Both the position numbers and the translations under genes were made by a program. From Halobium salinum (GTDB taxonomy: Archaea > Halobacteriota > Halobacteria > Halobacteriales > Haloferacaceae): a stretch of DNA of 64,000 nucleotides. A model generated the notes under the pieces. That model saw only the letters and a program-made list of their open reading frames with translations, had not been told where the DNA came from and did not search any database. The stretch is taken from the NCBI RefSeq assembly GCF_026586625.1, contig NZ_JAODIW010000006.1, forward strand, positions 630,927 through 694,926. The letters run 5' to 3'. Each line of letters opens with the position of its first letter. Within the stretch, counting starts at the first letter, position 1. Below, in pieces: positions 9,734-39,011 of this stretch.

Positions 9734-9889
9734 TGTTGGACACTCTAGGAACTCACTCACAGACGAACTTTAGGTTATGTCGCTCTTCATCGAAGAGGTC
9801 CCTGAGCGAAAACTGCACAAATGCATGCGTTCGATTGCTAACGAAAATCTCGAATATGCTGGTTGCGATGTACGCATCCATGGACCAGC

Positions 9890-11392
9890 ATGGGAATACT
9901 TGAGCTGCTCAAGAAATCGTACGTGAGGTTGACCGCAGAAGGGTCGACCACACAGAAAGCAGTCCAGAGTGGCCTCTGGATGGTCGGCATTAACATGTCC
10001 GACCGGCTCCTACAGATGGTGAAGCTCGTCATCTTGGCGTCTGTCCTGTCCCCGGAAGCTTTCGGCCTATTAGGGATTGCTCTCCTGTCCCTCGCTGCTC
10101 TAAGGCGTATTCTACAACTGGGCTTTGATCAGGCACTAATACAAAATAAGCGGACCGATATTGACGATTACCTCAATACTGCCTGGATTCTGAAGATACT
10201 CAGAGGTCTTGTCATCGCGTTCTTGGCCTACGCGAGTGCCCCGTACCTCGCGGCACTATTCAATGAGCCGAAGGCCGAATCCCTCATACGTATCATCGGT
10301 TTGTCTCCAGTCATTCTCAGCATACAGAATCCCGCAGTAGTCTACTTCCAGAAAAACCTCAACTTCGAAAAAGAATTTATTTATCAGGTCGGTGGAAAGC
10401 TTGTCGATCTTGTCGTTGCGACGGTGATTGCCTTCATCTATCAAAACGTCTGGGCCCTTGTGTACGGCCTCATCGCTGGCAACTTAGCTAAGGTGTTCCT
10501 TTCTTATGCAGTTCACCAATACCGACCTCGAATTTCGTTCAACCGAGCACATGCCCGGGAGATGATTGGATTCGGAAAATGGCTGATGGTTTCGGGTATA
10601 TTGGTGTTCGTCTACGGGCAGGGCGACGACGCATTCGTTGGGTGGTTCTTTGGAGCGACAGCCTTAGGATTCTACCAGCTCGCATACCGGTTCTCAAACG
10701 CCCCCGCAACCGAGGTAACTCACGTTATCTCCAGAGTCGCGTTCCCAGCGTTCTCCAAGTTGCAAGAAGATGTTGAACGGCTCCGTGAGGGATACTTTAG
10801 AACTGTTCAACTATCAACATTAATCGGTTTTCCGATGGCAACCGGCATCATCATCGTTGCTCCCGAATTCGTACGAGTATTCTTCGGTGTCAAATGGCTA
10901 CAAATGGTGCCTCTCATGCAGGTACTCGGAATTTGGGGAGCGCTACGAGCACTCGGTGCAAATGTCGGAGCGGTGTTCAAGAGTGTTGGAAGACCGGATA
11001 TTGAGACGAAGCTTCAAGTCATTCGTGTACTTTTATCGGTGGTACTTCTGATACCGCTCAGCAATCGGTTCGGAGTAGTTGGTGTCGCGTATACAATCAT
11101 CGTAACAACGGTATTTATTCAGCCTCTGACCGTCCGTTTTGTGCTGAACATCATTGACGGGAGTGCGATCAGATTGATACGGCTTATTTTGTTTCCCCTT
11201 TCTGCTAGTATAGTGATGGGTGGACTGTTAGTAGTAGTAAAAGACCTAGCCAATTTCGCCTCCGATATCGTGTTACTGACTCTTTTGGTTGGTCTCGGTG
11301 CTATCTTCTATATCTTTATTATATTCGTCTTTGCATCGATAACTGACTACGACGCAGTAAGTTTGGCAAGGAATATCGCAGGGTCAATATAG
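9890..11392 (+). CDS. MOP-family polysaccharide flippase (1 of 3)
   Basis: About 500 residues with 12-14 predicted membrane helices, beginning MGILELLKKSY, with the family-typical segment ASVLSPEAFGLLGIALLSLA at about 40-60 and FGKWLMVSGILVFVYGQGDD at about 225-245. These proteins translocate lipid-linked oligosaccharides across the cytoplasmic membrane. Start at 9890 gives a normal N-terminal amphipathic helix; an upstream start at 9863 would add nine non-homologous-looking residues. The gene and the next two are AT-richer than the rest of the locus, suggesting transfer. Confidence 0.9.
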   Translation: MGILELLKKSYVRLTAEGSTTQKAVQSGLWMVGINMSDRLLQMVKLVILASVLSPEAFGLLGIALLSLAALRRILQLGFDQALIQNKRTDIDDYLNTAWILKILRGLVIAFLAYASAPYLAALFNEPKAESLIRIIGLSPVILSIQNPAVVYFQKNLNFEKEFIYQVGGKLVDLVVATVIAFIYQNVWALVYGLIAGNLAKVFLSYAVHQYRPRISFNRAHAREMIGFGKWLMVSGILVFVYGQGDDAFVGWFFGATALGFYQLAYRFSNAPATEVTHVISRVAFPAFSKLQEDVERLREGYFRTVQLSTLIGFPMATGIIIVAPEFVRVFFGVKWLQMVPLMQVLGIWGALRALGANVGAVFKSVGRPDIETKLQVIRVLLSVVLLIPLSNRFGVVGVAYTIIVTTVFIQPLTVRFVLNIIDGSAIRLIRLILFPLSASIVMGGLLVVVKDLANFASDIVLLTLLVGLGAIFYIFIIFVFASITDYDAVSLARNIAGSI

Positions 11393-13986: not shown

Positions 13987-15117
13987 ATGACTGACGAAGT
14001 TCCTCTATACAAACCCGAGAACGTGATTGGTGAGGAGGTTCTCGATGGCATCCGCGAGGTCCTCGCCTCGGGATGGCTGACCCTCGGCCCGAAAACGCGG
14101 GCGTTCGAGGAGTCCTTCGCCGAGGCCCATGCGAGCGACCATGGCATCGCGATGAACTCCTGTACGTCGTCTCTGTACGCGACGCTGCGGGCGCTCGGAG
14201 TTGGAGAGGGCGATAGCGTCGTTGTCCCGGCGATGACGTTCTCCGCGACGGCGAACACTGTCCGACTGCTAGGGGGAGAGGTCGTCCTTGCCGACGTGGA
14301 CGCACACGGGAACATGGACCCTGAGAGCCTCCGACGGCTGCTTGATACACACGATGTCTCCGCCGTCGTCCCAGTTCATCTCTACGGACTTCCTGCGGAT
14401 ATGCACGAAATCGTTGACCTCGCGCGCGCTCACGATGCAGCTGTGGTTGAGGACTGTGCACATGCCCCGGGTGCGACGCTTGACGGACAACCTGTGGGCT
14501 CGTTCGGTGACGCGGGCTGCTACAGCTTCTACGCGACGAAGAACATGACGACTGGTGAGGGGGGGATGGTAGTGACGAGTGATGCGGAGCTCGCAGAGCG
14601 CGTCAGAAAGCTGCGGAACCACCACCAGACCAAATCCCCCGACGAGAAGAAACATAACTGGGGCTACGATGTCGACGGCCTCGGGTTTAACTTCCGAATG
14701 AGTGAGTTCGAAGCGGTCTTCGGCCTGAGCCAGCTCGATCGCCTCCCCGAGATGAACGAGAGCCGTCGACGAGTAGCGAATCGGTACGTCGAGCGAATCG
14801 AGTCGATTCCGGGGCTCGAGTGGGTCGGCGGTAACCCGGAGAAAGAACACGTGTTCCACCTGTTCGTCGTCCGCATCGGTGACGACTACCCGCTGAGCCG
14901 GCAGGAACTGTACGACCACCTCGACGACGCGGGAATCATCACCGGTGTACACTATCCGCCGATTTCGGACCTCTCGTACTACGAGGGCGTGCCCGGTGAA
15001 CACAGGACGGCGGACGTCCTGTTCGAGGAGATACTCTCGCTTCCGATGTACCCCGGAATGACTGACACCGAGCAGGAACAAGTGATGGAAGCGTTGGAGG
15101 CCCCGACAGATGGGTGA
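13987..15117 (+). CDS. DegT/DnrJ/EryC1-family sugar aminotransferase
   Basis: 376 residues. PLP-dependent fold: LASGWLTLGPKTRAFEESFA near the N-terminus, CTSSLYATLRALGVG at about 59-73, VVEDCAHAPGATLDG at about 153-167 and the PLP lysine in FYATKNMTTGEGGM at about 180-193. These enzymes transaminate 4-keto (or 3-keto) sugar nucleotides from glutamate. With rmlB and rmlA nearby the likely substrate is dTDP-4-keto-6-deoxyglucose, giving a 4-amino-4,6-dideoxyhexose; a role in the distant nonulosonate pathway (LegC-type) cannot be excluded. It overlaps the next gene by 8 bp, indicating translational coupling. Confidence 0.9.
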   Translation: MTDEVPLYKPENVIGEEVLDGIREVLASGWLTLGPKTRAFEESFAEAHASDHGIAMNSCTSSLYATLRALGVGEGDSVVVPAMTFSATANTVRLLGGEVVLADVDAHGNMDPESLRRLLDTHDVSAVVPVHLYGLPADMHEIVDLARAHDAAVVEDCAHAPGATLDGQPVGSFGDAGCYSFYATKNMTTGEGGMVVTSDAELAERVRKLRNHHQTKSPDEKKHNWGYDVDGLGFNFRMSEFEAVFGLSQLDRLPEMNESRRRVANRYVERIESIPGLEWVGGNPEKEHVFHLFVVRIGDDYPLSRQELYDHLDDAGIITGVHYPPISDLSYYEGVPGEHRTADVLFEEILSLPMYPGMTDTEQEQVMEALEAPTDG

Positions 15118-16246
15118 AACGGTCGGTCATTTCAGAACGTCGTTTCTCCCGCTGACGCAGACGTTCATTTACCAGTATCTAACCCATCACGAGCGGTACG
15201 AACCCTTCGTCTGTGCCCTGTCCAGCGAAAATCGCGATGTGTTCGACTTCGAGCCACGAGAGGTGTTTTTAGACCTTCCCCGATGGAGTCCTCGGTTTTG
15301 GGTGTACGGTAGCCTGGCGAAACTCGGAATCAGAGGCATCGAAAACACGTACTACCAGAGAATTCTCGACCGACGCGACCCCGACATCGTACACGCGCAC
15401 TTTGGACCGATGGGTGTGAAATTGGTACCACACCGTACTAACGACCGGCAGCTCGTCACCTCCTTCTACGGATACGACGCGTCACAACTGGTCGACAGTA
15501 ATCCGGAGTACCGAACGAAGTACGAAGAACTGTTCGACCATGGAGACCTGTTCCTCGTCGAGGGCCCCGCGATGAGGGAGAAAGTGGTCGCACTCGGCTG
15601 TCCAAAGTCGAAACTGGCGATTCAACGCATCGCCATTGACACGACGCGAATCGAGCCACGGTTTCCCCAAGACGACGGCCCGATGCAGGTGCTGATGGTC
15701 GGGAGGTTCGTAGAAAAGAAGGGAATGCCGGACGGAATCAAAGCCTTCGCTTCAGTCTTCGAGGGTAAGGCGGCCGAACTGCGAATCGTCGGAGGGGAAG
15801 CCGACGAGTACACACGTGAAGACCTCGGGCGGGTAGCGGCTGACTGTAATGTGGAGAATCAAGTCACCTTCACCGGGTTTCTAGAGTATGACCAATATCT
15901 CCGAGAGGTCCGCACGTGTGATGTCCTGTTGGCGCCAAGCAAGCGTGCCGAATCAGGCGACTCGGAAGGAGGGGCGCCGACGGTTCTCCTCGAAGCACAG
16001 GCGTCGGGAAAACCGGTCGTGGCGACCACCCATGCTGACATCCCGTACGTTATCGAGGACGGAAAGACGGGGGTATTGGCCGCACCGGGAGACATCTCTG
16101 GGTTGGCAGCCGCGCTCGAACGGTGCGTCAACGACAGAGAGCGGATGGCCCGGATGGGGCAGGTCGGCGTCGAGCGAATGGAACAGCGTCACGACGTACG
16201 AGTTCTCGCGGAGCAATTAGAGGAGAGGTACGACGGGATTCGGTAA
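15110..16246 (+). CDS. GT4-family glycosyltransferase
   Basis: 378 residues, GT-B fold. The N-terminal acceptor half includes FLPLTQTFIYQYL and HAHFGPMGVKL; the C-terminal donor half includes VGRFVEKKGMPDGIKAFASV at about 198-217, VTFTGFLEYDQYLREV at about 250 and the sugar-nucleotide E-x7-E site SEGGAPTVLLEAQASGKPVV at about 286-305. A retaining transferase that adds one sugar to the lipid-linked glycan at the membrane's inner face. Coupled to the aminotransferase, so it may transfer the amino-deoxysugar. Confidence 0.9.
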   Translation: MGETVGHFRTSFLPLTQTFIYQYLTHHERYEPFVCALSSENRDVFDFEPREVFLDLPRWSPRFWVYGSLAKLGIRGIENTYYQRILDRRDPDIVHAHFGPMGVKLVPHRTNDRQLVTSFYGYDASQLVDSNPEYRTKYEELFDHGDLFLVEGPAMREKVVALGCPKSKLAIQRIAIDTTRIEPRFPQDDGPMQVLMVGRFVEKKGMPDGIKAFASVFEGKAAELRIVGGEADEYTREDLGRVAADCNVENQVTFTGFLEYDQYLREVRTCDVLLAPSKRAESGDSEGGAPTVLLEAQASGKPVVATTHADIPYVIEDGKTGVLAAPGDISGLAAALERCVNDRERMARMGQVGVERMEQRHDVRVLAEQLEERYDGIR

Positions 16247-16286
16247 CCCCTTGAGGTTGAACGAGACACCGTTGTGTGAGTGAACG

Positions 16287-17360
16287 ATGAAAGGCGTGAT
16301 CCTCTCGGGTGGGAAGGGAACAAGACTCCGTCCGATAACGCACACTGGTCCGAAACAACTGGTCCCCGTGGCGAACAAACCGGTGATACAGTATGCTATC
16401 GAGGACCTCGCTGAGGCGGGAATCACCGAAATCGGAATCGTCCTCGGAAATAAAGGCGCGGCGCGTATCCAGGAGTTCCTCGGCGACGGGAGCGCGTTCG
16501 ATGTCGATATCACGTACATCTTTCAGGGGGAACCGCTCGGTCTGTCTCATGCGGTGGGGTGCGCACGCGACTTCGTCGGTGAAGATGATTTCGTCGTCTA
16601 CCTCGGGGATAACATCCTGAAACAGGGCGTCGTCGAACTCGTCGAAAGCTTTCGACAAGGGGACTTTGTCGCAGGAATCGCACTTCAGGAGGTCGACCAC
16701 CCGGAACGGTTCGGCGTCGCGGATCTAAATGAAGACGGGAGTGTCGAACGGTTGATTGAGAAGCCGGATTCTCCACCGAGTAATCTAGCCCTCATTGGAG
16801 TGTATGTGTTTTCCTCAGAAGTGTTCGATGTGATAGACGAACTGGAACCCTCCTGGCGCGGCGAGTTAGAGATTACTGACGCTATCCAGCAGCTACTGGA
16901 GGAACACGGACGGGTTGACTCCCACGTGGTTCACGGCTGGTGGAAAGACACTGGAAAGCCCACCGACATTCTCGACGCGAACCGGCTCGTACTCGACGAA
17001 CAGATTGGCATTGTGAGTGGTGAAATCGAAGACGGTGCGGAGGTCACTGGTCAGGTGGACCTGCAAGAGGGAGCGGTGGTCGAGGCCGGGGCAGTCGTCC
17101 GCGGTCCGGTCTCTATCGGAGCGGACACCCACATCAAGTCTGGAACTTACATCGGTCCTTACACCTCCATCGGCCGAGACTCTGTAGTGGCAGGTGCACA
17201 AATCGAGAATAGCGTCATTGTAGGGGAGTCCACGATCACCGCCTCCGAACGAATCGTTGATAGTCTCTTGGGCCGAGGAACAACAGTAGAGAGCGCAGAT
17301 GAGTTGCTGCCTACCGGGCGCCGGTTCGTCGTCGGTGAGAACTCGAACCTGAAGCTTTAG
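16287..17360 (+). CDS. rmlA: glucose-1-phosphate thymidylyltransferase, long form
   Basis: 357 residues. Nucleotidyltransferase signature MKGVILSGGKGTRLRPITHT, KPVIQYAIEDL, GDNIL at about 113 (Asp metal ligand) and EKPDSPPSNLALIGVYVF at about 156-175, then a C-terminal left-handed beta-helix (EAGAVVRGPVSIGADTHI, GTYIGPYTSIG) of the archaeal/actinobacterial long RmlA type. It makes dTDP-glucose from glucose-1-phosphate and dTTP, the substrate for RmlB. Only 40 bp follows the GT4 gene, so the three genes from 13987 are probably one transcript. Confidence 0.9.
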   Translation: MKGVILSGGKGTRLRPITHTGPKQLVPVANKPVIQYAIEDLAEAGITEIGIVLGNKGAARIQEFLGDGSAFDVDITYIFQGEPLGLSHAVGCARDFVGEDDFVVYLGDNILKQGVVELVESFRQGDFVAGIALQEVDHPERFGVADLNEDGSVERLIEKPDSPPSNLALIGVYVFSSEVFDVIDELEPSWRGELEITDAIQQLLEEHGRVDSHVVHGWWKDTGKPTDILDANRLVLDEQIGIVSGEIEDGAEVTGQVDLQEGAVVEAGAVVRGPVSIGADTHIKSGTYIGPYTSIGRDSVVAGAQIENSVIVGESTITASERIVDSLLGRGTTVESADELLPTGRRFVVGENSNLKL

Positions 17361-17362
17361 AT

Positions 17363-17524
17363 ATGAAAATATTCACACAAACGTGTTCGGACTGTGGGAC
17401 GATCGTAGCAGCGAACATCCTCGACCGAGAACGGGTACTGAAGTGCCCACGACTGGGATGTTCAAACGTCTTCTCGTTCGACGACTTCCCGGAGGATCAA
17501 AGACAGCACGTCCAGCAGGATTAG
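17363..17524 (+). CDS. tiny zinc-ribbon protein (53 aa)
   Basis: Starts two bases after the rmlA stop (MKIFTQTCSDCGTIVAANIL) and ends EDQRQHVQQD at 17522-17524. Two cysteine pairs, CSDC and CPRLGC, spaced about 17 residues apart, form a plausible one-zinc ribbon. Haloarchaea encode many such mini zinc proteins; the position immediately behind rmlA suggests co-transcription. No function assigned. Confidence 0.6.
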   Translation: MKIFTQTCSDCGTIVAANILDRERVLKCPRLGCSNVFSFDDFPEDQRQHVQQD

Positions 17525-17714
17525 GACCGACTTCGGCTCGAATTCTCGGTTCGGGCTTCCCGCGTTACGTCGGCTCCGGACGGCAGTGGGGCGCGTAGCT
17601 ATCCGCGAAAAGAGACACGTACAAGACGGGCTCTTTGCTCCCAGCGAACACTCTGTTTTCACCGGCTTCGGTGGACAGCGGGTCCGAGGCTCTCTTCCGG
17701 TAGGCCACCGACCG

Positions 17715-18593
17715 TCAGTCAGTTCTCTCTTCAACTCTGCCCACGAAACTGGCTATCTTCAGGACGCACTCTATCATGTAGAACGTCGCCATCTTTTGAG
17801 GGGTCTGATGACTATTCACACGTTCGACGAATTGGGCTGGATTCGGCGGCAGGAAGTTGAACAGGTGGTACCAGGGACGACCACCCAGCGTATCTCGGTG
17901 GTTCCGATAACGCTGTTCAGCCCCCCGACCGAGCCGGCGAGCCTTTTTCAGGTGCTGGCCGAACGTGGCTCGCGCTGGGTGATAGTACGTGACGTCCCCG
18001 GCGAATCGTTGGCTGTACCCCGCCCGAAAGACGCGCTGTCCGAACTCGAAGTCCCCGCCCGACTCCAGATCTTCTGCGAACAAGCCAACATCGTCGAACA
18101 CTGAATGGCGGACGGTCAGACAGCAAGTCGGCGAGAAGTGTAATTCGGAGACGTAGTGACGGACGGGAAATCCTGTCGCGAGGCTGTACTCGCTCCAAAC
18201 TGAATCCTGCCCGTCGGGGACGTACAGTTCGACGTCACCGGCGACGTAGCTGTAGTCAGTTGCTTGAAACACCGCGTCAAGATCCCTCAGCCAGGACGCA
18301 TCGACGGTCATGTCCGAGTCAACGAACGCTACCAACTCACCCGTACTCCTCCTAACCCCGGTGTTACGGGCCGCGTATGAACTTTGAATGTCCGTCTCTT
18401 CAAGTGCGACGACATGAGCGTACTCGGCGGCAAAGCTTTCGACCACGGCTTTCGTGTCGTCCGTTGAGCCGTTATCGACGACGAGTATCTCGTGGCGATC
18501 ACGAGGGTAACGAACCTCAAGGAGAGATTCCAATGTGTCTCGGATTCCGGTGCCGTCGTTGTATACCGGGACGATGACCGAGAACCGCTTCAT
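17715..18593 (-). CDS. GT2-family glycosyltransferase
   Basis: 292 residues from MKRFSVIVPVYNDGTGIRDT. GT-A fold: VDNGSTDDTKAVVES at about 35-50, FVDSDMTVDASWL (DxD metal site) at about 88-100 and the acceptor-side GGDFEFGQRVFRAGYSQRF near 190-208. Inverting transferase acting on cytoplasmic lipid-linked glycan. Starts at 18677 or 18695 would add 28-34 residues (MSNKPEDALTAV...); the family normally begins right before the first strand, so 18593 is preferred with moderate confidence. Confidence 0.85.
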   Translation of the reverse strand: MKRFSVIVPVYNDGTGIRDTLESLLEVRYPRDRHEILVVDNGSTDDTKAVVESFAAEYAHVVALEETDIQSSYAARNTGVRRSTGELVAFVDSDMTVDASWLRDLDAVFQATDYSYVAGDVELYVPDGQDSVWSEYSLATGFPVRHYVSELHFSPTCCLTVRHSVFDDVGLFAEDLESGGDFEFGQRVFRAGYSQRFAGDVTYYHPARATFGQHLKKARRLGRGAEQRYRNHRDTLGGRPWYHLFNFLPPNPAQFVERVNSHQTPQKMATFYMIECVLKIASFVGRVEERTD

Positions 18594-18707
18594 CTGTAAG
18601 GGGAAGGTCTCGGATCGCTCGGTCTCTGGTGTCGATGTGAGTACTGCAGTGAGTGCATCTTCAGGTTTATTGCTCATCCCCGACTTGAACTCCATACTTA
18701 TTAGAAT

Positions 18708-19592
18708 ATGGTGAAGATCAGCGTAGTCATCCCCACGCACAATCGAGAGGACGTCGTCGGTCACGCAATCGATAGCGCGTTGAATCAGACGATGACGGAT
18801 ATCGAAGTTGTCGTGGTGGACGACGCTTCGACCGACGATACGCGAGCAGTGGTCGAAGCGTACGACGACGACCGACTCACATACGTCAGACACGATGTCA
18901 ATCGAGGTGGAAGTGCTGCGAGGAACTCGGGAATCGAACGCTCCACCGGCGAGTACGTCGCATTTCTCGACTCGGATGATGAGTGGCGTGCTGACAAGCT
19001 CAGCAGGCAGATCGGCCGTCTGGAGACCCGTTCCGAGGAGTGGCGTGCTGCGTACTGCGGCTTCCGGAGCGAGCGCCAGAGCGCTGTCGTCTCCCTGGTG
19101 GACAATCTTCTCGAACGAGAAACGGGAATCGAGGGGGACACCGAGCTGCTCTACGCCATTCTCCTGCTCCGGTTCTCGCACGGGGGGTCCTCGACACTCG
19201 TTGTCGAGCGGAGTCTCGTCGACGAACTGGAAGGGTTCGACCCGACGTTCTCACGCCATCAGGACTGGGAGTTCCTCGTTCGGTTGCTTCAGCGGAGCCG
19301 GTTGGCATACGTCGATGCTCCGCTCGTGACAAAACACGACACGGGAGTTCCGGATTTCGAAACCTGTCTCGAGGCCCGGAAACGGTACTTACGGAAGTTC
19401 TCGGATATCGTCGTCGACCTCTCGTTGGCTGGATATCCGGTTATCGAGCGCCATCGCTTCTCGCTGGCGAAGGTCGCGTTTGCAAACGGCCGGCATCGGG
19501 AGGGAATCGCGCTCCTCCGGGGGTCGGCAGCACCGCACGTCCGCGACTACTTCGGACTCGGCCTCGCGGTCTACAACGGCTTGAACGGCTGA
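18708..19592 (+). CDS. GT2-family glycosyltransferase
   Basis: 294 residues beginning MVKISVVIPTHNREDVVGHA, with VDDASTDDTRAVVEAYDD at about 37-54 and the metal site FLDSDDEWRADKL at about 86-98, followed by a WEFLVRLLQRS segment near 188. Classic GT-A inverting transferase. It is divergent from the other GT2 gene with little space between them, so the two probably share a control region. Confidence 0.88.
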   Translation: MVKISVVIPTHNREDVVGHAIDSALNQTMTDIEVVVVDDASTDDTRAVVEAYDDDRLTYVRHDVNRGGSAARNSGIERSTGEYVAFLDSDDEWRADKLSRQIGRLETRSEEWRAAYCGFRSERQSAVVSLVDNLLERETGIEGDTELLYAILLLRFSHGGSSTLVVERSLVDELEGFDPTFSRHQDWEFLVRLLQRSRLAYVDAPLVTKHDTGVPDFETCLEARKRYLRKFSDIVVDLSLAGYPVIERHRFSLAKVAFANGRHREGIALLRGSAAPHVRDYFGLGLAVYNGLNG

Positions 19593-21001: not shown

Positions 21002-22252
21002 ATGGCACTGTATGCGTTTGCAGTTTCTCTGCTGTCACTGCTGTTCGTCCTCACCAAGGTAGCGGACCGCACCTATCGCGTCCTCGCTCCGGTAGCTTTC
21101 GCCGTTCACACCCTCGTCGCGGTCGTCGTCTTGCCGCTCCTCCCCTACCGCTGGGATACCGCGACCTTCGACCGAGAGGCCCGTGCGATATTGAACGGAG
21201 GCCTACCGTCGTTCTCATCGACGGTTGATTCGTTCGCCGCGTTCCACGCGCTAGTCTACGCGTTTCTGGGGGCCGATCCGATCGTTCTCTCCCTGGTCAA
21301 CGGCCTCCTGGCGGTCCTGACCCCGCTCCCACTCTACCGGGTCTTGAAATCACTCTACCCCTCGCTGTCGGTACCACGTCTCTACACGTTGGCCGTCCTC
21401 TTTCTCCCATTGCCGCTTCTGTTCACCACCCTCCCGATGCGGGACGCGCTCTCCATCCTCGTTTTCGTGACGGCGCTGGCTCTTCTGTGCATGGTTCCGG
21501 ACAACCGAGACTGGCGTCCACTGGTCGTCGCCTCCCCGCTCCTTGCCCTTCTCTCTCTCCTCCGACCGGAGCTCGCCGCGGTACTGGCTCTCGGAGCTTC
21601 GGCCGGAGCCTCCCTGTGGGTTTTGGACGCCGTCTCCGAGAAACCGGTCTCCCTTCGGCTCGTTGCCGCATCCGCTACGACCTTCGGCTTCGTCGGTTTT
21701 CTCGCTCTCACCCGGCTGGTTCCGCTCTCTGCCCTCAACCGCCGAATTGCGTTCCGCGCCTCTGGCGGCGCCGCCTATCTCGAGGGACTACAATACGAAT
21801 CCTGGTTCGATGTCCTCCTATTAGCACCAATTCGCGGCCTGTACTTTCAGTTCGCCCCCTTCCCACTCCACGTGAACTCGGCGTTCGACCTCTTGGCGCT
21901 CGGTTCGCTGCCGCTGCTCGTCTTCTTCTTCACTGGTGCCCTCCGTTCGCTCTACAGGACCGAGAGTGACAGAGTAATCGGCACCGGTCTAATCGTCGTC
22001 TACGTTGGCGGTGTAATCGGGTACGGATTGATCGACTCGAATTTCGGAACGAGCGTGAGGCATCGTATCCCCTTCGTCTTGCTCCTGATTACCTTCGCTG
22101 CACCTACGTTATTCGGACTCGAACAATCACTCGAAGACTGGCTTCGTGTACGGCCAGAAGAGCGCCGTGAAGGCGACGAACAGGACGGCGAACGAGAGGA
22201 ACTTGATAGCGTCGTTCATGTCGGTGAGCAGTATCCGAACCATTCCGATTAG
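21002..22252 (+). CDS. multi-pass membrane protein, glycosyltransferase- or polymerase-like
   Basis: 416 residues with about 10-11 hydrophobic helices, starting MALYAFAVSLLSLLFVLTK. A loop after helix 2-3 contains YRWDTATFDREARAILNGG, an acidic loop in the position used by GT-C-type transferases or EpsG/Wzy-like polymerases. No decisive motif. The C-terminal 42 residues are charged and run antisense to the next gene (126 bp overlap), so they may be an extension added by loss of an earlier stop. Could elongate or polymerise the lipid-linked glycan. Confidence 0.75.
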   Translation: MALYAFAVSLLSLLFVLTKVADRTYRVLAPVAFAVHTLVAVVVLPLLPYRWDTATFDREARAILNGGLPSFSSTVDSFAAFHALVYAFLGADPIVLSLVNGLLAVLTPLPLYRVLKSLYPSLSVPRLYTLAVLFLPLPLLFTTLPMRDALSILVFVTALALLCMVPDNRDWRPLVVASPLLALLSLLRPELAAVLALGASAGASLWVLDAVSEKPVSLRLVAASATTFGFVGFLALTRLVPLSALNRRIAFRASGGAAYLEGLQYESWFDVLLLAPIRGLYFQFAPFPLHVNSAFDLLALGSLPLLVFFFTGALRSLYRTESDRVIGTGLIVVYVGGVIGYGLIDSNFGTSVRHRIPFVLLLITFAAPTLFGLEQSLEDWLRVRPEERREGDEQDGEREELDSVVHVGEQYPNHSD

Positions 22253-22484: not shown

Positions 22485-23606
22485 ATGTCCGCTGAGTATT
22501 GCGTTCTTCACGTCGTCACTCGCTCAACGTGGGGGGGTGCCCAGAAAGTCGTTCACCTCCTCGCCACCAGGGGGCACGCGAACGCGTCTGTGGCCTGCGG
22601 GGGCGGGGGCAGGCTCATCAGCGAACTCCGGACCAGCCGGATACCGGTTTTTCGACTGCCTGCGTTCAGGAGTTCGCCAGCGCCGCTGAGCGATACGAGG
22701 ACGCTCCTGCGGCTCCTCGAAATTCTCCGGGAGCATTCGTTCGACCTGGTCCACTGTCACAGCACGAAGGCCGGCCTGGTCGGTCGACTCGCGTCGCTCT
22801 TCTCCGGTGTTCCGACCGTCTTCACGGTCCACGGGTGGGGGTTCTACAACACGTCGTACGGGTCGCTTCGACCGCTGCTTGTACACGGTGAACGAGCGTT
22901 GGCACGCGGTACGACTGCTCTCGTCTGCGTCTCGGAAAACGACAGACGGGAGGGGTGTGAACGGGGTATCCTACAGAACGCCCGCACCGAGGTGATTCAC
23001 AACGGTGTTCCCCCGTATACCCCGGCTCCGAACAGTTCACCTCTCTGGAACGAACTCGACATCGACGACGACGTACCCGTCATCGGCGCGGTTCTGCGTC
23101 TCGCTCCGCAGAAAGACCCACTGGCCATTCTCCGGGTAGCGAAACGGCTCCGGGGCCGGGGGCACCCCGTCTCGACGGTGCTGATAGGGGATGGACCGCT
23201 CGCTGAAGACTGCAAGCGGTTCGTTCGGAACAACGGAATGGAGGACGTCCACCTGCTCGGCTTCCGTCAGGACGCCCTCCCGCTCCTCGCGGACCTCGAC
23301 GCGTTCCTCCTTCCGTCCCGCTTCGAGGGGTTCCCGCTGACGGTCCTCGAGACGATGCACCTTGGCGTCCCGATCGTCGCGTACGATGTCGGCGGGGTCT
23401 CCGAAGCGCTCTCCGACCGAGAGACCGGACGAGTAGTTCTCCCCGGCGACGAGGCGGCGTTCACCGATGCCGTTGAGGAACTCGTCGTAAATAAGACCCG
23501 TCGTCGGGAGATGGGCGACGCCGCTCGACGACGGGCGCGAAATCGGTTTACCGCGGAGCGCATGGTCGCAGACTACGACCGATTGTACGATTCGATTCTC
23601 TCCTGA
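22485..23606 (+). CDS. GT4-family glycosyltransferase
   Basis: 373 residues. Begins with the GT4 acceptor motif HVVTRSTWGGAQKVVHLLAT (residues 10-29), HCHSTKAGLVGRLASLF near 87-103 and FTVHGWGFYN; donor half has VIGAVLRLAPQKDPLAILRV near 197-216, VHLLGFRQDALPLLADLDAF near 255 and the E-x7-E site RFEGFPLTVLETMHLGVPIV near 279-298. Similar in layout to GT4 enzymes that add HexNAc or Gal early in capsule assembly. Stands alone between two minus-strand genes. Confidence 0.9.
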   Translation: MSAEYCVLHVVTRSTWGGAQKVVHLLATRGHANASVACGGGGRLISELRTSRIPVFRLPAFRSSPAPLSDTRTLLRLLEILREHSFDLVHCHSTKAGLVGRLASLFSGVPTVFTVHGWGFYNTSYGSLRPLLVHGERALARGTTALVCVSENDRREGCERGILQNARTEVIHNGVPPYTPAPNSSPLWNELDIDDDVPVIGAVLRLAPQKDPLAILRVAKRLRGRGHPVSTVLIGDGPLAEDCKRFVRNNGMEDVHLLGFRQDALPLLADLDAFLLPSRFEGFPLTVLETMHLGVPIVAYDVGGVSEALSDRETGRVVLPGDEAAFTDAVEELVVNKTRRREMGDAARRRARNRFTAERMVADYDRLYDSILS

Positions 23607-23644: not shown

Positions 23645-26644
23645 TCAGTCGTCGACGGCGGACTCGCGGTAGAGCGAAACGATACGTTCGTCCGGTAGCG
23701 CCTCCCCGAATAGACGGAGCTCGTCCATCGACCCGTCGTAGCGGCTGAAGTCCCCGTAACTGGTCGCTTCGCGACCGATTCGAACCCGGCTCGCGTCGCC
23801 GAAGTCGACCGCCGATACCGGGATCGACCCACGGCCGATTTGCCGTCCATCTAGGAACCAGGTCACTGCCCCACGTTCGAAGACCACCGCGACGTGGTGG
23901 AAACGGTTCGTCGGATACGAGAGGTCGAGGGACGGTGACCGAGCCCCCGCTGACCGGTCTCCGTCACCGACGAACAGTCCCAATCTGTCGTCCACCCAGC
24001 CGGAGAGACCGTGGTCGAAGAGGAATCCGCTCGTCGAGTCGGCGCCACCGTCTTTCCCGACCGAGAGAATGGCTCCGCTCGACTGCGTTCGTGGCTCGAT
24101 CCAAGAACTCACGGTGAATGCACTGAAACTTCCCGACTCGGTACCGGCGATAGCCTGTGACCCCTCTTCGGAGTCGAACGACAGCGCCGACTCACGGACG
24201 CCCGAAGTCCACGAAGCGTCCTCGACGGCTGCGTGGTTGCCTCCCACTCGGTCGTAGGCAGTACTCCCCTCGCCGGCGTCGAACGACCAGTAGGAGATAC
24301 CGTCCCCCTCGAAGAAGCTTCGGCGGGTACCGGATCTGATCTCCGAGTCGGATACGTCCACCGTCCGTCCACCGACCGTGTACTCCCCAGGATACGCAAC
24401 CCGAACGGCGTACACCCCGTGTCGACTGCTCACCCGGCGGTCGTATTCGAAACCTCGGTCCGGAAGGTCGACGCTTGCCATCGTCCGTACGGAACTGCCG
24501 TCGCTGGCCGGACCCGTGAGGAGCACTCCCGGGACCAGTTCGTATGCGAGCTTCGATTCGGTGACTCCCACCGCACGGTAGTGTCCCACCCCCGAAACCG
24601 AGGGGTCGCCGTTCGCGAATGACTGTAGCTGAGAGTAGAGCGGACCACCCTCCTCGGGGTTCTCCCGGTCAACGACGACGAATCCGGTCCGGTCTTCCAG
24701 CTTCCGGTACCACCGTTCGCCGTCGGTGGCGCCGACGAACCCGCTGTAGTTGCTCCGTGCGTACGCGTACGACCGCGACTCACCGTTCACAAAGTAGTTG
24801 TAGAACCGATTGCTCCCCCACTCGCTCAGCACGTAGCTCTCCGGATACTCCAACCCGTGCTCGTCGGCGTACTCCCGCATCGCCATCGCGAGCTCGTACG
24901 CCTCCTCGCCGTGTGTCAACTGGCTCGTCTTGATGGGGGTCTGGACGAGACTCAGACTCCCGACCATCGCCCCGAGACCGAGGGTCGTCATCGCCTCCCG
25001 CCGCTCGGGCATCGCAAGCTCCGTCCGCTCGCCGCCGTCGGCCCTGCGACCGCGGTTGGAGCCGCCTTGAACCACATCGGGCACGGCGGCCACGTCGAGC
25101 TTCGAAGCCAGGTGGACGAACCCGACCCCGGCGAAGACCGCAACGAACACCGACAGCTCACCCGCGAAGCGGAGCTGGACGACCGACAGGACGAGCAGGA
25201 ACCACCCGTACACCGCCATCGCGGCCCACTCGGGGGCGTGGTCGGTCCACGCCCGCCACGTAGCCCACAGAAGGTACGGCAGGCCGAGGACGAACACCAG
25301 TCCGAACAGGAACAGCGGGCCGATGAGCGTGCCTAGTTCCTGCCCGAACATCGACCCGGCCTCCACCGCGCCCGCGGTCCCGAACAACTCGTCGACGCCC
25401 GAGTCGAACGCGAAGCCGGAGGAGGGAACGACGAGGAAGTAGGCACCGACCAGTCCGAGGACGGCCACCCCTTCGATTCCCACCGCGCTACGGTAGCCGA
25501 GTCCGCGCCGTGAGGCCACCTCGCCGGCGGCGACACAGATGACAGCCCCTCCGAACAGCACCGCCGATACTGACGCCAGCGTCGTCGACTGCCAGCCGAG
25601 TCCCAGATGGGTGAGGAAGGTGAGCACCGCCCCGAGGCCGGCTCCGGCGGCGACCGGCCACAGCGTCTCGAGCGGTGACTCGTCTGCTCGGACGGCCGAC
25701 ACGGACGCGAGCGCCACCGCCCCACCGACCGGAAGCACGAGTAATGCGCCCGCGTCCCACGCGAGCAGTTGTGCCGAGATACCCACGCCGAGTGCGACCG
25801 TCGCGAGGAGTCCGACTCGGCGCCCCTTCGAACCCCCGACCTCGCGAGTCAACGCGTAGACGAGCGCCACGACCGTCAGCGCCAGCCAGACGTAGTCGAA
25901 TGCGTGGTGGTCGGCGAAGCCCAGACTCGTCCGGTAGGCGTGCACTGGCGTAATCGCCAGCATCGCGACTGACGCCAGCCCGATACGTCGGTCCCCGGTC
26001 AGGCGGGTCGCGAGCAGGTAGACGAGGACGCCGGTGACGACCGCCGCGAGGAGGGGGTACAGCGCGAGGACGAGGCCGACTGCGCCGGTACTCCCGCCCA
26101 GCAGCATCGATACCGCAGCGAGCGTCGCCACGAGGAGGGGTTCGCCCACACGCGCCGTCTCGGGGATGAACCCCCCGTCGACGCCGCGGAGCGTCTTTTC
26201 GACGAGGTAGCGGTAGTAGTAGGGGTCGTTCGCGGTGAGCACGACGTCGCCGCCGCGGAACACCGCCGGGAGCGAGAACGAGCGAAAGAGGACGAGCAGG
26301 AGGAGCGTCCCGGCGAGGGCCGCCGCGGCGCGACGGTCGACGCTCGGGAGCGACAGGTTGGGCGAGCGGAACGCGCCGACGGTCGAGGCACCGGTCTCGG
26401 ACGTGTCGCCGGACTCACTGTCGAGCGCTCGCCGCACGGCCACGCGATCGGTGAAGCGGTACCCCTCGCCGGCGCTCTCGACGAACTCCCTAGAGACGAG
26501 TTCGCCGAACGCGCCGGAGTCGAGGGCGGTGTCGTCGAACGTCCACGGGCCGTCGGCGTCGCGTTCGACGAGCGCTCGGAGGGCGGGTTCCAGGTCGGGG
26601 CGGTCCGCGAGGAGCTCCGCGGCCGCCGTCCGCTCGTCGGTCAT
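23645..26644 (-). CDS. STT3/AglB-like membrane protein with C-terminal LamG domain
   Basis: 999 residues. N-terminal ~85-residue cytoplasmic winged-helix-like region, then 11-13 membrane helices (about 90-570). STT3-type loop motifs are visible: VLTANDPYYYRYLVEKTLRG near 135 and SLGFADHHAFDYVW near 240. The extracytoplasmic domain begins near 600, but where WWDYG is expected the sequence is VLSEWGSNRFYNYF. Residues about 790-990 are a LamG/concanavalin-type fold (YWSFDAGEGSTAYDRVGGNH, FTVSSWIEPR, HHVAVVFERGAVTWFLDG, MDELRLFGEALPDERI). Probably transfers or ligates glycan at the cell surface; the missing motif makes classical N-glycosylation uncertain. TATA box 26 nt upstream fixes the start. 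Confidence 0.82.
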   Translation of the reverse strand: MTDERTAAAELLADRPDLEPALRALVERDADGPWTFDDTALDSGAFGELVSREFVESAGEGYRFTDRVAVRRALDSESGDTSETGASTVGAFRSPNLSLPSVDRRAAAALAGTLLLLVLFRSFSLPAVFRGGDVVLTANDPYYYRYLVEKTLRGVDGGFIPETARVGEPLLVATLAAVSMLLGGSTGAVGLVLALYPLLAAVVTGVLVYLLATRLTGDRRIGLASVAMLAITPVHAYRTSLGFADHHAFDYVWLALTVVALVYALTREVGGSKGRRVGLLATVALGVGISAQLLAWDAGALLVLPVGGAVALASVSAVRADESPLETLWPVAAGAGLGAVLTFLTHLGLGWQSTTLASVSAVLFGGAVICVAAGEVASRRGLGYRSAVGIEGVAVLGLVGAYFLVVPSSGFAFDSGVDELFGTAGAVEAGSMFGQELGTLIGPLFLFGLVFVLGLPYLLWATWRAWTDHAPEWAAMAVYGWFLLVLSVVQLRFAGELSVFVAVFAGVGFVHLASKLDVAAVPDVVQGGSNRGRRADGGERTELAMPERREAMTTLGLGAMVGSLSLVQTPIKTSQLTHGEEAYELAMAMREYADEHGLEYPESYVLSEWGSNRFYNYFVNGESRSYAYARSNYSGFVGATDGERWYRKLEDRTGFVVVDRENPEEGGPLYSQLQSFANGDPSVSGVGHYRAVGVTESKLAYELVPGVLLTGPASDGSSVRTMASVDLPDRGFEYDRRVSSRHGVYAVRVAYPGEYTVGGRTVDVSDSEIRSGTRRSFFEGDGISYWSFDAGEGSTAYDRVGGNHAAVEDASWTSGVRESALSFDSEEGSQAIAGTESGSFSAFTVSSWIEPRTQSSGAILSVGKDGGADSTSGFLFDHGLSGWVDDRLGLFVGDGDRSAGARSPSLDLSYPTNRFHHVAVVFERGAVTWFLDGRQIGRGSIPVSAVDFGDASRVRIGREATSYGDFSRYDGSMDELRLFGEALPDERIVSLYRESAVDD

Positions 26645-28531: not shown

Positions 28532-29701
28532 ATGTCGGTCAACGATGACGTGGCGGGAGAAGCGAAACGGGTGTCGGCCATGCTCGTCGTCGGAACCCGG
28601 CCGGAGATCGTCAAGGCCGCCCCGGTCGTCCGCGCCGCCGAGGCGAACGAGCGGGTCGACCTCACGCTGGTCCACACGAACCAGCACTACGACGCCGAGC
28701 TGAGCGACGTGTTCTTCGAGACGCTGGAGTTGGACCCGCCGAGCGTCGACCTGGAGGTCGGGAGCGGCAGCCACGGCGAGCAAACCGCAGACGCGCTCGT
28801 CGGCGTCGAACGCCTCCTCCAAGAACGCGACCCCGACGTCGTCCTCGCGGTGGGTGATACGAACACCGTGCTCTCGACGGCACTCGCGGCGAGCAAGCTC
28901 CCCGTCGCGTTCGGACACGTCGAGGCGGGCATCAGGAGCGGCGACCTGTCGATGCCCGAGGAGGTGAACCGCATTCTCGCCGACCACGTCGGCGACCTCC
29001 TGTTCGCGCCGACCGAGGAGGCGGCCACGAACCTGACTCATGAGGGAATCGACCGGAACGTCCGCATGACGGGCAACACCGTCGTCGACGCCTGTCGGAC
29101 CCACGCCCGAATCGCGGAGTCGCGCTCCGACGTCCTCGACCGATTCGGTCTGGAACCGGAGGGGTACGCGGTCGCGACGGTTCACCGACCGCGGAACACC
29201 GACGACCCCGACCGGCTCGCCTCGACCTTGGAAGCGCTCGACGATGCCCCGCTCCCGGTCGTGTTCCCCGTTCATCCGCGCACCCGGTCGGCCATCGACG
29301 CCCTTGACTTCGAGTCGACGGGTGCGCTCCGCACGGTCGAGCCGCTCGACTACCTCGACTTCCTCGCGCTCCTCTCGGAGGCCCAGCTGGTGGTCACCGA
29401 CTCCGGTGGGGTACAGGAGGAGGCGTCGATACTCGAACGACCCTGTCTGACCGTCCGACCGAACACGGAGCGGCCGGAGACGGTCGACGCCGGCGTGAAC
29501 GAGCTGGTCGAACCGGCCGACCTCGCGGCACGGATACGGACGCTCCACGGCGACGAAGCGGTCCGGACGGCGATGACCGGTCACCCTGACCTCTACGGCG
29601 ACGGCCGGGCGGGCGAACGTATCGTGGACACCCTCGTCGAGCGATTCGAACCCGAAGGGGGACCGGCGGACCGTGAGCCCGGTGTCGACTCACAGTCGTA
29701 G
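28532..29701 (+). CDS. wecB: UDP-N-acetylglucosamine 2-epimerase, non-hydrolysing
   Basis: 389 residues. VVGTRPEIVKAAPVVRAAE near residue 18, VEAGIRSGDLSMPEEVNRIL near 130-149, HPRTRSAID near 248 and VVTDSGGVQEEASIL near 288-302 are the UDP-binding and catalytic signatures. It interconverts UDP-GlcNAc and UDP-ManNAc. No UDP-ManNAc dehydrogenase (WecC) is in the window, so UDP-ManNAc may be used directly. An in-frame ATG at 28580 would give a shorter N-terminus; the upstream one is kept. Confidence 0.92.
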   Translation: MSVNDDVAGEAKRVSAMLVVGTRPEIVKAAPVVRAAEANERVDLTLVHTNQHYDAELSDVFFETLELDPPSVDLEVGSGSHGEQTADALVGVERLLQERDPDVVLAVGDTNTVLSTALAASKLPVAFGHVEAGIRSGDLSMPEEVNRILADHVGDLLFAPTEEAATNLTHEGIDRNVRMTGNTVVDACRTHARIAESRSDVLDRFGLEPEGYAVATVHRPRNTDDPDRLASTLEALDDAPLPVVFPVHPRTRSAIDALDFESTGALRTVEPLDYLDFLALLSEAQLVVTDSGGVQEEASILERPCLTVRPNTERPETVDAGVNELVEPADLAARIRTLHGDEAVRTAMTGHPDLYGDGRAGERIVDTLVERFEPEGGPADREPGVDSQS

Positions 29702-29870: not shown

Positions 29871-30800
29871 TCACGCTCGCGTACTCTCGACCAGTCGGCT
29901 GATTCCTTCCTCCAGCTCGACCGTCGCCTCGAAGTCCAGCGTCTCCTTTGCCCTCGAAACGTCCGCCCGGCTGTGGCGGATGTCGCCGACTCGTGGGTCG
30001 ACGTGGGTTATCTCGGCGTCGCTCCCGGTCGCCCCGACGATGGCGTCGGCGATGTCGAGAATCGTGGTTTGCTCCCCGGTAGCGACGTTGAATGGCTCAC
30101 CGACGGCGTCGGTCGTCGCCGCGAGCAGGTTCGCCCGAACCACGTCCTCGACGAAGACGAAGTCGCGAGTCTGTTCTCCGTCGCCCTCTATCGTGATGGG
30201 GCCACCCTCCCGGGCTTGCTGCAGGAAGACGCTGATGACGGCCGCGTAGTCGCTCCCGCCCTGTCGCGGCCCGTACACGTTGAAGTATCGGAGCGGAACC
30301 GTCTCTAGCCCGTACAGGTCGTGGTACACCTGCGCGTAGTGGTCGAGCGTCAGTTTCTGCACGCCGTAGGGTGACGAGGGGGTCTTCGGGTCGTCCTCGT
30401 GGACCGGGACCGACTCGGGGTCGCCGTAGATGGCCGCCGACGACGCGAGCACGATGCGGGCGTCCTCGTCCCGGGCCCGTTCGAGCAGCGAGAGGGTGGC
30501 GTCGACGTTTACCGCGTTCGAGCGCGTCGGGTCCTCGACGGTGTCCGAGACGGCGACGACCGCGCCCTGATGGTAGATGACGTCGACATCTTCCGTCGCC
30601 CGGTCGAGCGCGTCCTCGTCGCGGAGGTCACCCTCGACGAGTTCGGCGTCGTCGTGGACGTTCGCCCGGTCACCGGAGGCGAGACTGTCGAGGACGACCA
30701 CGTCGTTGTCGGGAACGAGCGCGTCGACGAGGTGGCTCCCGATGAAGCCGGCGCCGCCGGTGACGAGCACCCGCTTTCCGACAGGACCTATCGAGTTCAT
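29871..30800 (-). CDS. NAD-dependent sugar-nucleotide epimerase/dehydratase (GalE-like)
   Basis: 309 residues; extended SDR with RVLVTGGAGFIGSHLVDAL at about 10-28, YHQGAVVAVSDTVEDP at about 75-90, LASSAAIYGDPESVP near 120 and the catalytic SPYGVQKLTLDHYAQ near 146-160, then YFNVYGPRQ. Most similar in pattern to archaeal UDP-glucose/UDP-GlcNAc 4-epimerases. It likely supplies UDP-Gal/GalNAc or a uronic derivative to the locus. The ATG at 30800 is preferred over 30884 because the glycine-rich NAD site normally lies within about 10 residues of the start. Confidence 0.88.
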   Translation of the reverse strand: MNSIGPVGKRVLVTGGAGFIGSHLVDALVPDNDVVVLDSLASGDRANVHDDAELVEGDLRDEDALDRATEDVDVIYHQGAVVAVSDTVEDPTRSNAVNVDATLSLLERARDEDARIVLASSAAIYGDPESVPVHEDDPKTPSSPYGVQKLTLDHYAQVYHDLYGLETVPLRYFNVYGPRQGGSDYAAVISVFLQQAREGGPITIEGDGEQTRDFVFVEDVVRANLLAATTDAVGEPFNVATGEQTTILDIADAIVGATGSDAEITHVDPRVGDIRHSRADVSRAKETLDFEATVELEEGISRLVESTRA

Positions 30801-30884: not shown

Positions 30885-31433
30885 CTACTCGGGAATGAAG
30901 CGTGTCCGGACCCACCGGAGGAGAGCAGTCCCCGGCGTCCCGTCGGCTATCCAGAGGAGGGCCGCGGGAACAGCTAACACCAATATGCGAACGACGAACA
31001 GGGGAGTGAGTTCAAGTTCTGCGAAGTGTGCGAGGAACCCGCCGTCTCCGTAATCGATGGCTGGAACAAGCGGCCAAAGCAGGAAGCCCAGTTCGTACAG
31101 CGACCCACCGAGGAGCGGATTCAACGCGTCACCAATCAGATGGCTGTAGTATCCCGTCCCAAACGCGGTCGCATACGACAATCGACTGCTGCGGTGCGCT
31201 ACGTAGAGGACGGTGACGACGATAATCGTCGTCGTAATCGCCGAGTGTGTGAGCGACCGTCCGTTCGGGATGACGCCGAACGTCCACGCGAGCGGCTTGT
31301 CGACAAGGTCTGGGAACTGTGTCCCGAACGCCAGGAGAAGAGCAGTAGTGTCCGTCGGAGGTGGATTCCCAGACAACCGGCGCCAAAGCGAATATACGAC
31401 ATATCCGAACACAAGGTGCCCCCAAGGCCACAT
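30885..31433 (-). CDS. YdjM-like membrane-bound hydrolase family protein
   Basis: 182 residues beginning MWPWGHLVFGYVVYSL. His/Asp motifs characteristic of the LexA-regulated membrane hydrolase (YdjM, DUF457) family are visible: WGH at 4-6, FGTQFPDLVDKPLAW near 36-50, SLTHS near 59, YYSHLIGDALNP near 92-103. Four to five membrane helices. A putative metal-dependent hydrolase of unknown substrate, common in haloarchaea. A TATA-like box 28 nt upstream supports the start. Confidence 0.8.
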   Translation of the reverse strand: MWPWGHLVFGYVVYSLWRRLSGNPPPTDTTALLLAFGTQFPDLVDKPLAWTFGVIPNGRSLTHSAITTTIIVVTVLYVAHRSSRLSYATAFGTGYYSHLIGDALNPLLGGSLYELGFLLWPLVPAIDYGDGGFLAHFAELELTPLFVVRILVLAVPAALLWIADGTPGTALLRWVRTRFIPE

Positions 31434-37583: not shown

Positions 37584-39011
37584 ATGAACCTCGCCCGAGC
37601 CAGTCTGAAAATCGTTGTAGCTAATGGCATCAGCGCCATTGCAGTCTTCGTTGGACTGGCCGTTTTGGCTCGACATCTGTCGCCCGCTCAGATGGGTGCT
37701 TTCTTCCTCTTTCAGACGCTCGTCGGCGTGTTCTCGCTTCTCGCTGATGTGGGGATTCGAGGAGCAGTAGAGAAGCGCCTTAGTGAAGGGAGGGACTCCG
37801 GAACCGTCCTCACAACCGCCCTGCTCCTCAAGACCGCCGTAACCGGAATCGTTCTCATCGGCATCTACGCTTTTCGTGACACTTTGAACGCGTACATGGG
37901 TGCCGAACTCGCCCTCTGGGTCGCCCTCGGCGTCGTTCTCAACGAGGCCTCGGAACTCGTAATCCACGTGTTGCGTGGAGAGTTGCGGGTCGGTGACACG
38001 GCTCCGATTGAGGCGGCCAGACACCTCGTCTGGTTCGGTGTCGCTGTTCCCCTCGCTATCGTCGGATTCGGGACCTTGGGCGTCGTATTCGGGTTTTTAG
38101 GGGGGTTCGTTGTCGCTGTGAGTTGGGGGGTAGTTAGTTGGACAACGACGTTTGGACGCCCCTCAATCGCGCAGGCTCGGTCGCTGCTTCAATACTCTCG
38201 ATACAACTTCGTCTCCGCCGCCGGTGGGTACATTTACAACTGGATGGACGTCGCTGTGCTGGGGCTGTTCGTCTCGAACTCCCTGATTGGTGCCTACGAG
38301 TACGCGTGGCAGATCACGCTCGTTGCGTCTCTCGTCGCGAGGTCGGTCGCCACGACAGCGTTCCCCCAGCTCAGTAAATGGAACGAGAGTGACCAACGGT
38401 CCTCGGTTGAGTCGACTCTGACATCGGCGATGAGTGTCGGTCTGTTCGTTTCGGTGCCTGCGTTCTTTGGTGTGGTCGTTCTTGCAGATCCAATGCTTAG
38501 ATATCTGTTCGGTGCCGACTATGCGGTCGCTGCCCTCGTTCTCGTCATTCTGATGGGGGAGAAAGTGCTCCTGTCGGTGAAGGAGATTCTCGACCGGGCA
38601 CTTCTCGCCGTGGACAAACCTGACCTCGTTGCGCGGGCGGTTATCATCACGGTCGTGCTGAACCTCGTCCTGAACGTCGCACTCGTCGCACAGTACGGTA
38701 TCGTCGGAGCAGCGATTGCGACTGCGGTGGCGTTCGGAGTTGAGACGTTCTTGGCTGGCCGATACGTTTCCAGGTTCGTTACCGTTCGTGTCCCGTACCG
38801 GCACCTGTTCTGGTACTCCCTCGGGTCGCTCGTGATGGTTCTCGGTCTCGTCGGTTACCAGTGGCTCGTCGGCGTGAACGGACTCGTCGACCTCCTTCTC
38901 GCCATTCTGATTGGTTTCGTCCTGTACGCCGGGACGACCATCGCATTCCCGGAGGTAAGAGAGCAAGTCGTCCTTACTGGCTTGCGCACCCTGTCTAGTG
39001 GTAACGAGTGA
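37584..39011 (+). CDS. MOP-family polysaccharide flippase (2 of 3)
   Basis: 475 residues with 12-14 hydrophobic helices, starting MNLARASLKIVVANGISAIA, with ARHLSPAQMGAFFLFQTLVG and LLADVGIRGAVEKRLSEGRD typical of the Wzx/RfbX branch. Moves a lipid-linked glycan across the membrane. It overlaps the region before the next gene closely (possible start of the next at 39050), so it is likely the first gene of a three-gene transcript with a membrane GT-like protein and a GT4. Confidence 0.9.
   Translation: MNLARASLKIVVANGISAIAVFVGLAVLARHLSPAQMGAFFLFQTLVGVFSLLADVGIRGAVEKRLSEGRDSGTVLTTALLLKTAVTGIVLIGIYAFRDTLNAYMGAELALWVALGVVLNEASELVIHVLRGELRVGDTAPIEAARHLVWFGVAVPLAIVGFGTLGVVFGFLGGFVVAVSWGVVSWTTTFGRPSIAQARSLLQYSRYNFVSAAGGYIYNWMDVAVLGLFVSNSLIGAYEYAWQITLVASLVARSVATTAFPQLSKWNESDQRSSVESTLTSAMSVGLFVSVPAFFGVVVLADPMLRYLFGADYAVAALVLVILMGEKVLLSVKEILDRALLAVDKPDLVARAVIITVVLNLVLNVALVAQYGIVGAAIATAVAFGVETFLAGRYVSRFVTVRVPYRHLFWYSLGSLVMVLGLVGYQWLVGVNGLVDLLLAILIGFVLYAGTTIAFPEVREQVVLTGLRTLSSGNE

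Follow-up and report, generated by a model that had tools for sequence, protein, structure and literature searches.

Textbook N-glycosylation depends on the sequon N-X-S/T, which is read by the WWDYG motif of the oligosaccharyltransferase. What, then, does a relative of this enzyme do that has no WWDYG motif, and how does it choose its acceptor? This question is raised by a gene in a 64,000-nucleotide stretch of Halobium salinum DNA (hereafter the window; Table 1). The original prediction had read its product as an STT3-like multi-pass protein with acidic loops that lacks WWDYG and bears a LamG domain at its C-terminus, and had proposed an oligosaccharyltransferase relative that uses a different acceptor (polysaccharide, lipid or O-linked) held by the LamG domain. 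The gene is a single intact open reading frame, whose ATG start at position 26644 is supported by the invariance of the first methionine across 30 aligned N-termini. The STT3 family PF02516 matches the protein with 40.5 bits (Pfam cut-off 24.5), and TIGR04154, the NCBIfam profile of the archaeal oligosaccharyltransferase archaeo_STT3, yields 110 bits, far below its 450-bit cut-off. The O-antigen ligase family PF04932 (WaaL/Wzy; Pfam) has no match in the protein.

Table 1. Features of the STT3-like gene and of the surrounding glycan genes, in positions of the window.
Feature	Position	Strand	Basis
STT3/AglB-like protein, 999 aa; haloarchaeal family distinct from AglB	23645..26644	-	
N-terminal domain, aa 1-75, winged-helix-like; conserved DSGxFGELV	26420..26644	-	AlphaFold model, alignment
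GT-C membrane part, aa about 104-517	25094..26335	-	AlphaFold model, Foldseek
First DXD motif NDPYYYRY, aa 139-146; D140 = AfAglB Asp47	26207..26230	-	alignment
Second DXD motif GFADHHAFDY, aa 242-251; D245, H247 = AfAglB Asp161, His163	25892..25921	-	
GAVE, aa 425-428, TIXE-motif equivalent; E428 = AfAglB Glu360	25361..25372	-	hhalign
QLRF, aa 490-493, counterpart of AglB QVRF	25166..25177	-	hhalign
SEWGSNRFYNYF, aa 607-618, in place of SWWDYG	24791..24826	-	hhalign, 77-row alignment
LamG/concanavalin-like domain, aa 836-988, accessory	23681..24139	-	PF13385, E 1.5e-17
Polyprenyl-phosphate sugar-1-phosphate transferase (PGT), 495 aa	26745..28232	-	PF02397, 198 bits
UDP-GlcNAc 2-epimerase-like (PF02350)	28532..29701	+	
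NAD-dependent nucleotide-sugar epimerase/dehydratase	29871..30770	-	
GT4 glycosyltransferase	22485..23606	+	
Wzx/MurJ-type flippase (Polysacc_synt)	37584..39011	+	
Second Wzx-type flippase	9863..11392	+	
DegT aminotransferase, GT4, nucleotidyltransferase and GT2 genes of the same glycan region	13987..19592	+	

An AlphaFold model built from 50 relatives (mean pLDDT 85.4, pTM 0.76) displays the architecture of GT66 enzymes, that is a GT-C membrane fold followed by a C-terminal globular part. When the model was compared with solved structures by Foldseek, the top folds were four entries of Archaeoglobus fulgidus AglB (7e9s at E 7e-21), followed by eukaryotic STT3, PglB and DPY19, while the C-terminus retrieved concanavalin-like folds. 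A sequence-profile search of the PDB likewise led to A. fulgidus AglB (3waj, E 7e-34). The STT3-like nature of the protein and its two acidic loops hold up. The first 75 residues, which have no counterpart in AglB, are modelled as helix-helix-helix-strand-strand-helix (pLDDT 89.7) and, by STT3 topology, probably lie in the cytosol. Their winged-helix identity is suggestive only, since the PDB folds matched, MarR/YodB-type domains, are weak hits (best E 0.21).

The protein is no AglB orthologue, as it neither exceeds 450 bits with TIGR04154 nor falls into the AglB clade. The genome does possess one canonical AglB, encoded by its second PF02516 gene (L003:7663-11007), which carries GVMSWWDYGHWIT and scores 914.6 bits with TIGR04154. 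A strong AglB match was present in 36 of 40 sampled haloarchaeal genomes, and all 31 haloarchaeal AglBs recovered retain WWDYG. Members of the STT3-like family were detected in 155 of 293 Halobacteriales genomes at E < 1e-60; a looser threshold of 1e-10 raised this number to 163, the eight additional hits being weak and resembling those of AglB. The two groups separate cleanly: family members score 796–1117 on the family profile and 42–100 on the AglB profile, whereas AglBs score 43–171 and 664–1446, respectively. In a tree, computed by a quick search without bootstrap, the family forms one branch against all AglBs (SH-aLRT 100). A sample across the phylum Halobacteriota contained no protein in the family's score range outside haloarchaea; matches from there reached at most about 138 bits, and inspection of three of them showed WWDYG in two and NWWSYG in the third. 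The non-haloarchaeal AglB L160 of the same phylum has NWWSYG where SWWDYG would be expected.

Which parts of the AglB active site are retained? In A. fulgidus AglB, the metal is bound by Asp47 of Gly-Asn-Asp and by Asp161 and His163 of Asp-His-His, and indirectly by Glu360 of the TIXE motif (PMC8342417). All these positions have equivalents in the STT3-like family, which was evaluated over 77 named members in the alignment. N139 and D140 are kept in 77/77, D245 and H247 in 75/77 each, H246 in 77/77 and E428 in 76/77 sequences, and the arginine R492 is invariant (77/77). Hence, the family has both DXD motifs and the TIXE/SVSE glutamate that GT66 enzymes use for the metal, and the sequences argue for a metal-bound GT-C site like that of AglB. 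In the proposed twisted-amide mechanism, the acceptor amide is twisted by the Asp of the first DXD motif together with the TIXE Glu (PMC8342417); both carboxylates are retained in the family. The divergence from AglB (about 20% identity) might suggest an inactive or purely structural paralogue, but catalytic residues that are 97–100% conserved over 77 members make this hardly credible.

The acceptor side presents a different picture. The Ser/Thr pocket of A. fulgidus AglB is formed by WWDYG together with the DK/MI motif (PMC8342417), and WWDYG occurs in none of the 77 relatives. In a profile-profile comparison of the family with 25 haloarchaeal AglBs (hhalign; probability 100, E 4e-47, 666 columns), residues S607-E608-W609-G610-S611-N612 fall exactly on S-W-W-D-Y-G of AglB, so that of the five WWDYG residues only the second Trp is retained. 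The old +2-reader site instead holds a conserved motif of its own, SxW..NRx[YF]N, with W609 and N616 kept in 77/77, R613 in 76/77 and N612 in 69/77 members. A displaced WWDYG can be ruled out, as there is none in the 77 members and the hhalign site is unambiguous. Of the DK motif in its haloarchaeal-AglB form, the Asp and Lys-Phe positions are missing or variable as well. With the sequon Ser/Thr pocket missing throughout the family, acceptor recognition should therefore differ from that of AglB. One might still imagine a second AglB isozyme that continues to use N-X-S/T with a +2 pocket rebuilt from SxW..NRxYN, since W609 and the nearby Arg and Asn are (nearly) invariant and could restore some Ser/Thr contact. 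However, neither the Asp of WWDYG nor the DK residues remain, the family is a separate clade, and its coupling to a PGT (see below) points to a different class of donor, which renders such an isozyme highly improbable. Alternatively, the enzyme could resemble DPY19 and glycosylate proteins on a residue other than Asn (Ser/Thr or Trp). The Foldseek matches include structures of the C-mannosyltransferase DPY19, and a change of acceptor is possible in OST-like folds (PMC10154233). Yet DPY19 is metal-independent whereas the family keeps its metal ligands, and the match to the AglB fold is much closer; we consider a non-Asn acceptor improbable.

The LamG domain was predicted correctly: Laminin_G_3 (PF13385) matches with 64.5 bits (curated cut-off 27.6) and Foldseek returns jelly-roll folds. 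Its supposed role in holding the acceptor, in contrast, does not survive comparison with the rest of the family. The extension of roughly 200 residues is present in 15 of the 77 members, and all ten other extended members tested match Laminin_G_3; the 62 members lacking it share the altered site, and the tree requires at least nine gains or losses. We therefore reject LamG as a family-wide acceptor holder and regard it as accessory, because only a minority carries it and its presence changes repeatedly along the tree. To judge from this sequence distribution, it cannot define the acceptor of the family, and it may bind a surface glycan or the product. A single origin of the domain, suggested by one tree comparison, was disregarded, as LamG rows were compared there with AglB rows only. 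Thus, of the idea of an oligosaccharyltransferase relative with a different acceptor, the relatedness, the separate AglB and the family-wide loss of the pocket stand, whereas LamG as the acceptor holder is not supported.

A hint at the donor comes from the gene immediately upstream, which encodes the sole PF02397 protein of the genome, a PGT whose best NCBIfam match is EPS_sugtrans (290.3 bits, slightly below its cut-off). Among the 293 genomes, a PGT is encoded in 149 of 155 with the STT3-like family versus 42 of 138 without it, 96 genomes having neither (Fisher test without correction for kinship: odds ratio 57, p 1e-35); the 42 genomes with only the PGT and the six with only the STT3-like gene count against the joint pathway proposed below. 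In ten genera exhibiting both states, 23 species whose state could be read lack the STT3-like gene, and the PGT is also absent from 21 of these, so that the pair comes and goes together. The two genes lie within 10 kb of each other in 57 of 103 cases and within 20 kb in 72 of 103, and tblastn found them linked in 40 of 68 long named loci. The six exceptional genomes (G043, G095, G168, G195, G251, G266) lack both PF02397 and Wzy_C and may start their glycan by another way. Across genomes, sugar epimerases, nucleotidyltransferases, NDP-sugar dehydrogenases and GlmS are frequent neighbours of the STT3-like gene.

Such typical polysaccharide genes are also what one would expect if the protein were a polysaccharide ligase, similar to the bacterial WaaL-type ligases, that takes a polymer begun by the PGT and attaches it to a lipid or to a sugar already present at the surface, or releases it as exopolysaccharide. 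Moreover, Wzy_C proteins are found in 36 of the 42 PGT-only genomes as compared to 89 of the 149 genomes with both genes, as if they replaced the STT3-like protein; none was found in the window genome or in Halobacterium salinarum. This pattern fits a role of the STT3-like protein as final transferase, without proving it. Against a ligase, however, speak the fold and the catalytic site, which are those of a peptide-acceptor enzyme, and the retention of the TIXE Glu and the DXD Asp that act on the Asn amide. We know of no comparable polysaccharide in haloarchaea that is attached to a lipid. We thus rate a polysaccharide ligase as rather unlikely, although some of the clusters may make exopolysaccharide instead of a protein-linked glycan. 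A non-sequon Asn is favoured over a polysaccharide or lipid acceptor on the grounds that both carboxylates are kept and that the species of the H. salinarum orthologue has a known non-sequon N-glycan.

Several further genes of the region deserve mention. A single-span membrane protein with DUF4330 (PF14221; 19919-20749) belongs to a cluster seen in about 11 of 65 STT3-like neighbourhoods, often adjoining the PGT in Haloarcula, and is possibly part of the pathway. A YdjM-type (PF04307) membrane protein (30888-31412) represents a cluster found in eight STT3-like neighbourhoods. The glycan region also encodes a phosphodiesterase/pyrophosphatase-type protein (12706-13905), to which a protein encoded near the canonical aglB (L003:3849-6101) looks similar, only the window copy having been scanned. 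Two multi-pass membrane proteins without Pfam match (21002-22252 and 39083-40783) are polymerase candidates.

An acceptor can be proposed for H. salinarum, in which a sequence-independent, unexplained sugar attachment was reportedly described in 1998. Strain DSM 3754 encodes a homologue (L090) with 40% identity over 773 residues. Its genome has exactly two PF02516 genes, for AglB (C11) and for the STT3-like protein (G293 C1:932692), and exactly one PF02397 gene. The STT3-like gene (L090:10001-12319) lies 3.3 kb from the S-layer gene csg (L090:4145-6682; TIGR04216 at 1181 bits), the order being csg, three genes, STT3-like, GlmS, two nucleotidyltransferases and PGT (L090:16659-18074). Haloarcula loci have a similar set, comprising STT3-like, NDP-sugar dehydrogenase, PGT, GlmS and nucleotidyltransferase genes. 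In the H. salinarum type strain DSM 3754, the mature N-terminus of the S-layer protein reads A-N-A-D, a natural non-sequon, presuming that cleavage occurs at the site known for csg. This strain keeps Asn-2 but has Asp at position 4, where H. halobium was described as carrying the sequon Ser.

Previous work on H. salinarum established that Asn-2 of the S-layer protein carries a repeating-unit glycan, GalNAc-linked and made on dolichol diphosphate (PMC2952790; PMC4335974; PMC8674786). Its attachment is sensitive to bacitracin and continues when Ser4 is replaced by Val, Leu or Asn (PMC2952790; PMC4335974). Multiple transferases were suspected, with only one oligosaccharyltransferase gene recognised (PMC2952790; PMC4335974; PMC8674786), and in later papers the Asn-2 enzyme was still unassigned (PMC6591318; PMC3871713). 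With its lost +2 reader and its tie to a PGT that would make a diphosphate-linked glycan, the STT3-like family would fit both oddities. For the enzyme that transfers from dolichol diphosphate to Asn-2, whatever the +2 residue, we regard the H. salinarum orthologue as the strongest candidate, a hypothesis reached by elimination. One observation counts against this assignment: the Asn-2 glycan contains galactofuranose, but a search for UDP-galactopyranose mutase (PF03275) was negative in DSM 3754, as it was in the window genome. No common Asn-2 was found among S-layer proteins neighbouring STT3-like genes in other species, and hence acceptors probably differ between species. The low-salt enzyme of Haloferax volcanii is unlikely to belong to the family, as AglB is, if the report is correct, the only STT3 homologue of this species (PMC3871713) and no PF02397 gene was found in its genome, which served as control.

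Taken together, we favour, by a modest degree, the view that the STT3-like protein performs the transfer step in a second pathway for surface glycans, which operates alongside the AglB pathway. Judging from its family, the PGT would start a glycan on polyprenyl (dolichyl) diphosphate, which neighbouring glycosyltransferases may extend and a Wzx-type flippase may turn outward. From the conserved residues we infer that the STT3-like enzyme would then transfer the glycan at its metal site. It would select the acceptor without a +2 Ser/Thr, because the WWDYG and DK motifs of the corresponding pocket are missing; one or several Asn residues of a secreted protein, for instance that of the S-layer, seem the likeliest target, in H. 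salinarum conceivably Asn-2, and LamG would be an optional add-on. The more far-reaching proposal, i.e. a widespread second archaeal oligosaccharyltransferase that modifies sequon-free Asn with a PGT-made dolichyl-diphosphate glycan and is the Asn-2 enzyme of H. salinarum, is tentative, its chances being somewhat short of even. If true, nature would have uncoupled the chemistry from sequon reading by keeping the catalytic centre and dropping the Ser/Thr pocket, and an enzyme with relaxed sequon demand could be useful in glycoprotein engineering. A second PF02516 gene is present in a species to which the papers had assigned one oligosaccharyltransferase gene; together with the PGT it provides candidate genes that make a puzzle open since 1998 testable.

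Among the known systems, haloarchaeal AglB (GT66) shares with the STT3-like family the GT-C fold, two DXD motifs, the TIXE Glu, the conserved Arg and a C-terminal globular part, but possesses WWDYG and DK, which the family lacks. Conversely, the STT3-like protein has the additional N-terminal winged-helix-like domain, a shorter C-terminal part and a PGT-linked locus. AglB-L of A. fulgidus (7e9s, 3waj, 5gmy) is the best solved fold match, and its residues Asp47, Asp161, His163 and Glu360 all have equivalents in the STT3-like protein; unlike the latter, it has the WWDYG/DK Ser/Thr pocket and no LamG. The Wzy_C/WaaL proteins (PF04932) resemble the STT3-like protein in their role in PGT-initiated pathways and occur in most PGT-only haloarchaea, but differ in family, the STT3-like protein giving no PF04932 match. 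DPY19 likewise combines an STT3-like fold with a non-sequon acceptor and the lack of an N-X-S/T pocket; this tryptophan C-mannosyltransferase differs in being metal-independent and in using a monosaccharide donor and a Trp acceptor. The Asn-2 transferase of H. salinarum, for which the orthologue is a candidate, offers a parallel on three counts: it acts in the same species, its diphosphate donor would correspond to the linked PGT, and its sequon independence to the lost pocket.
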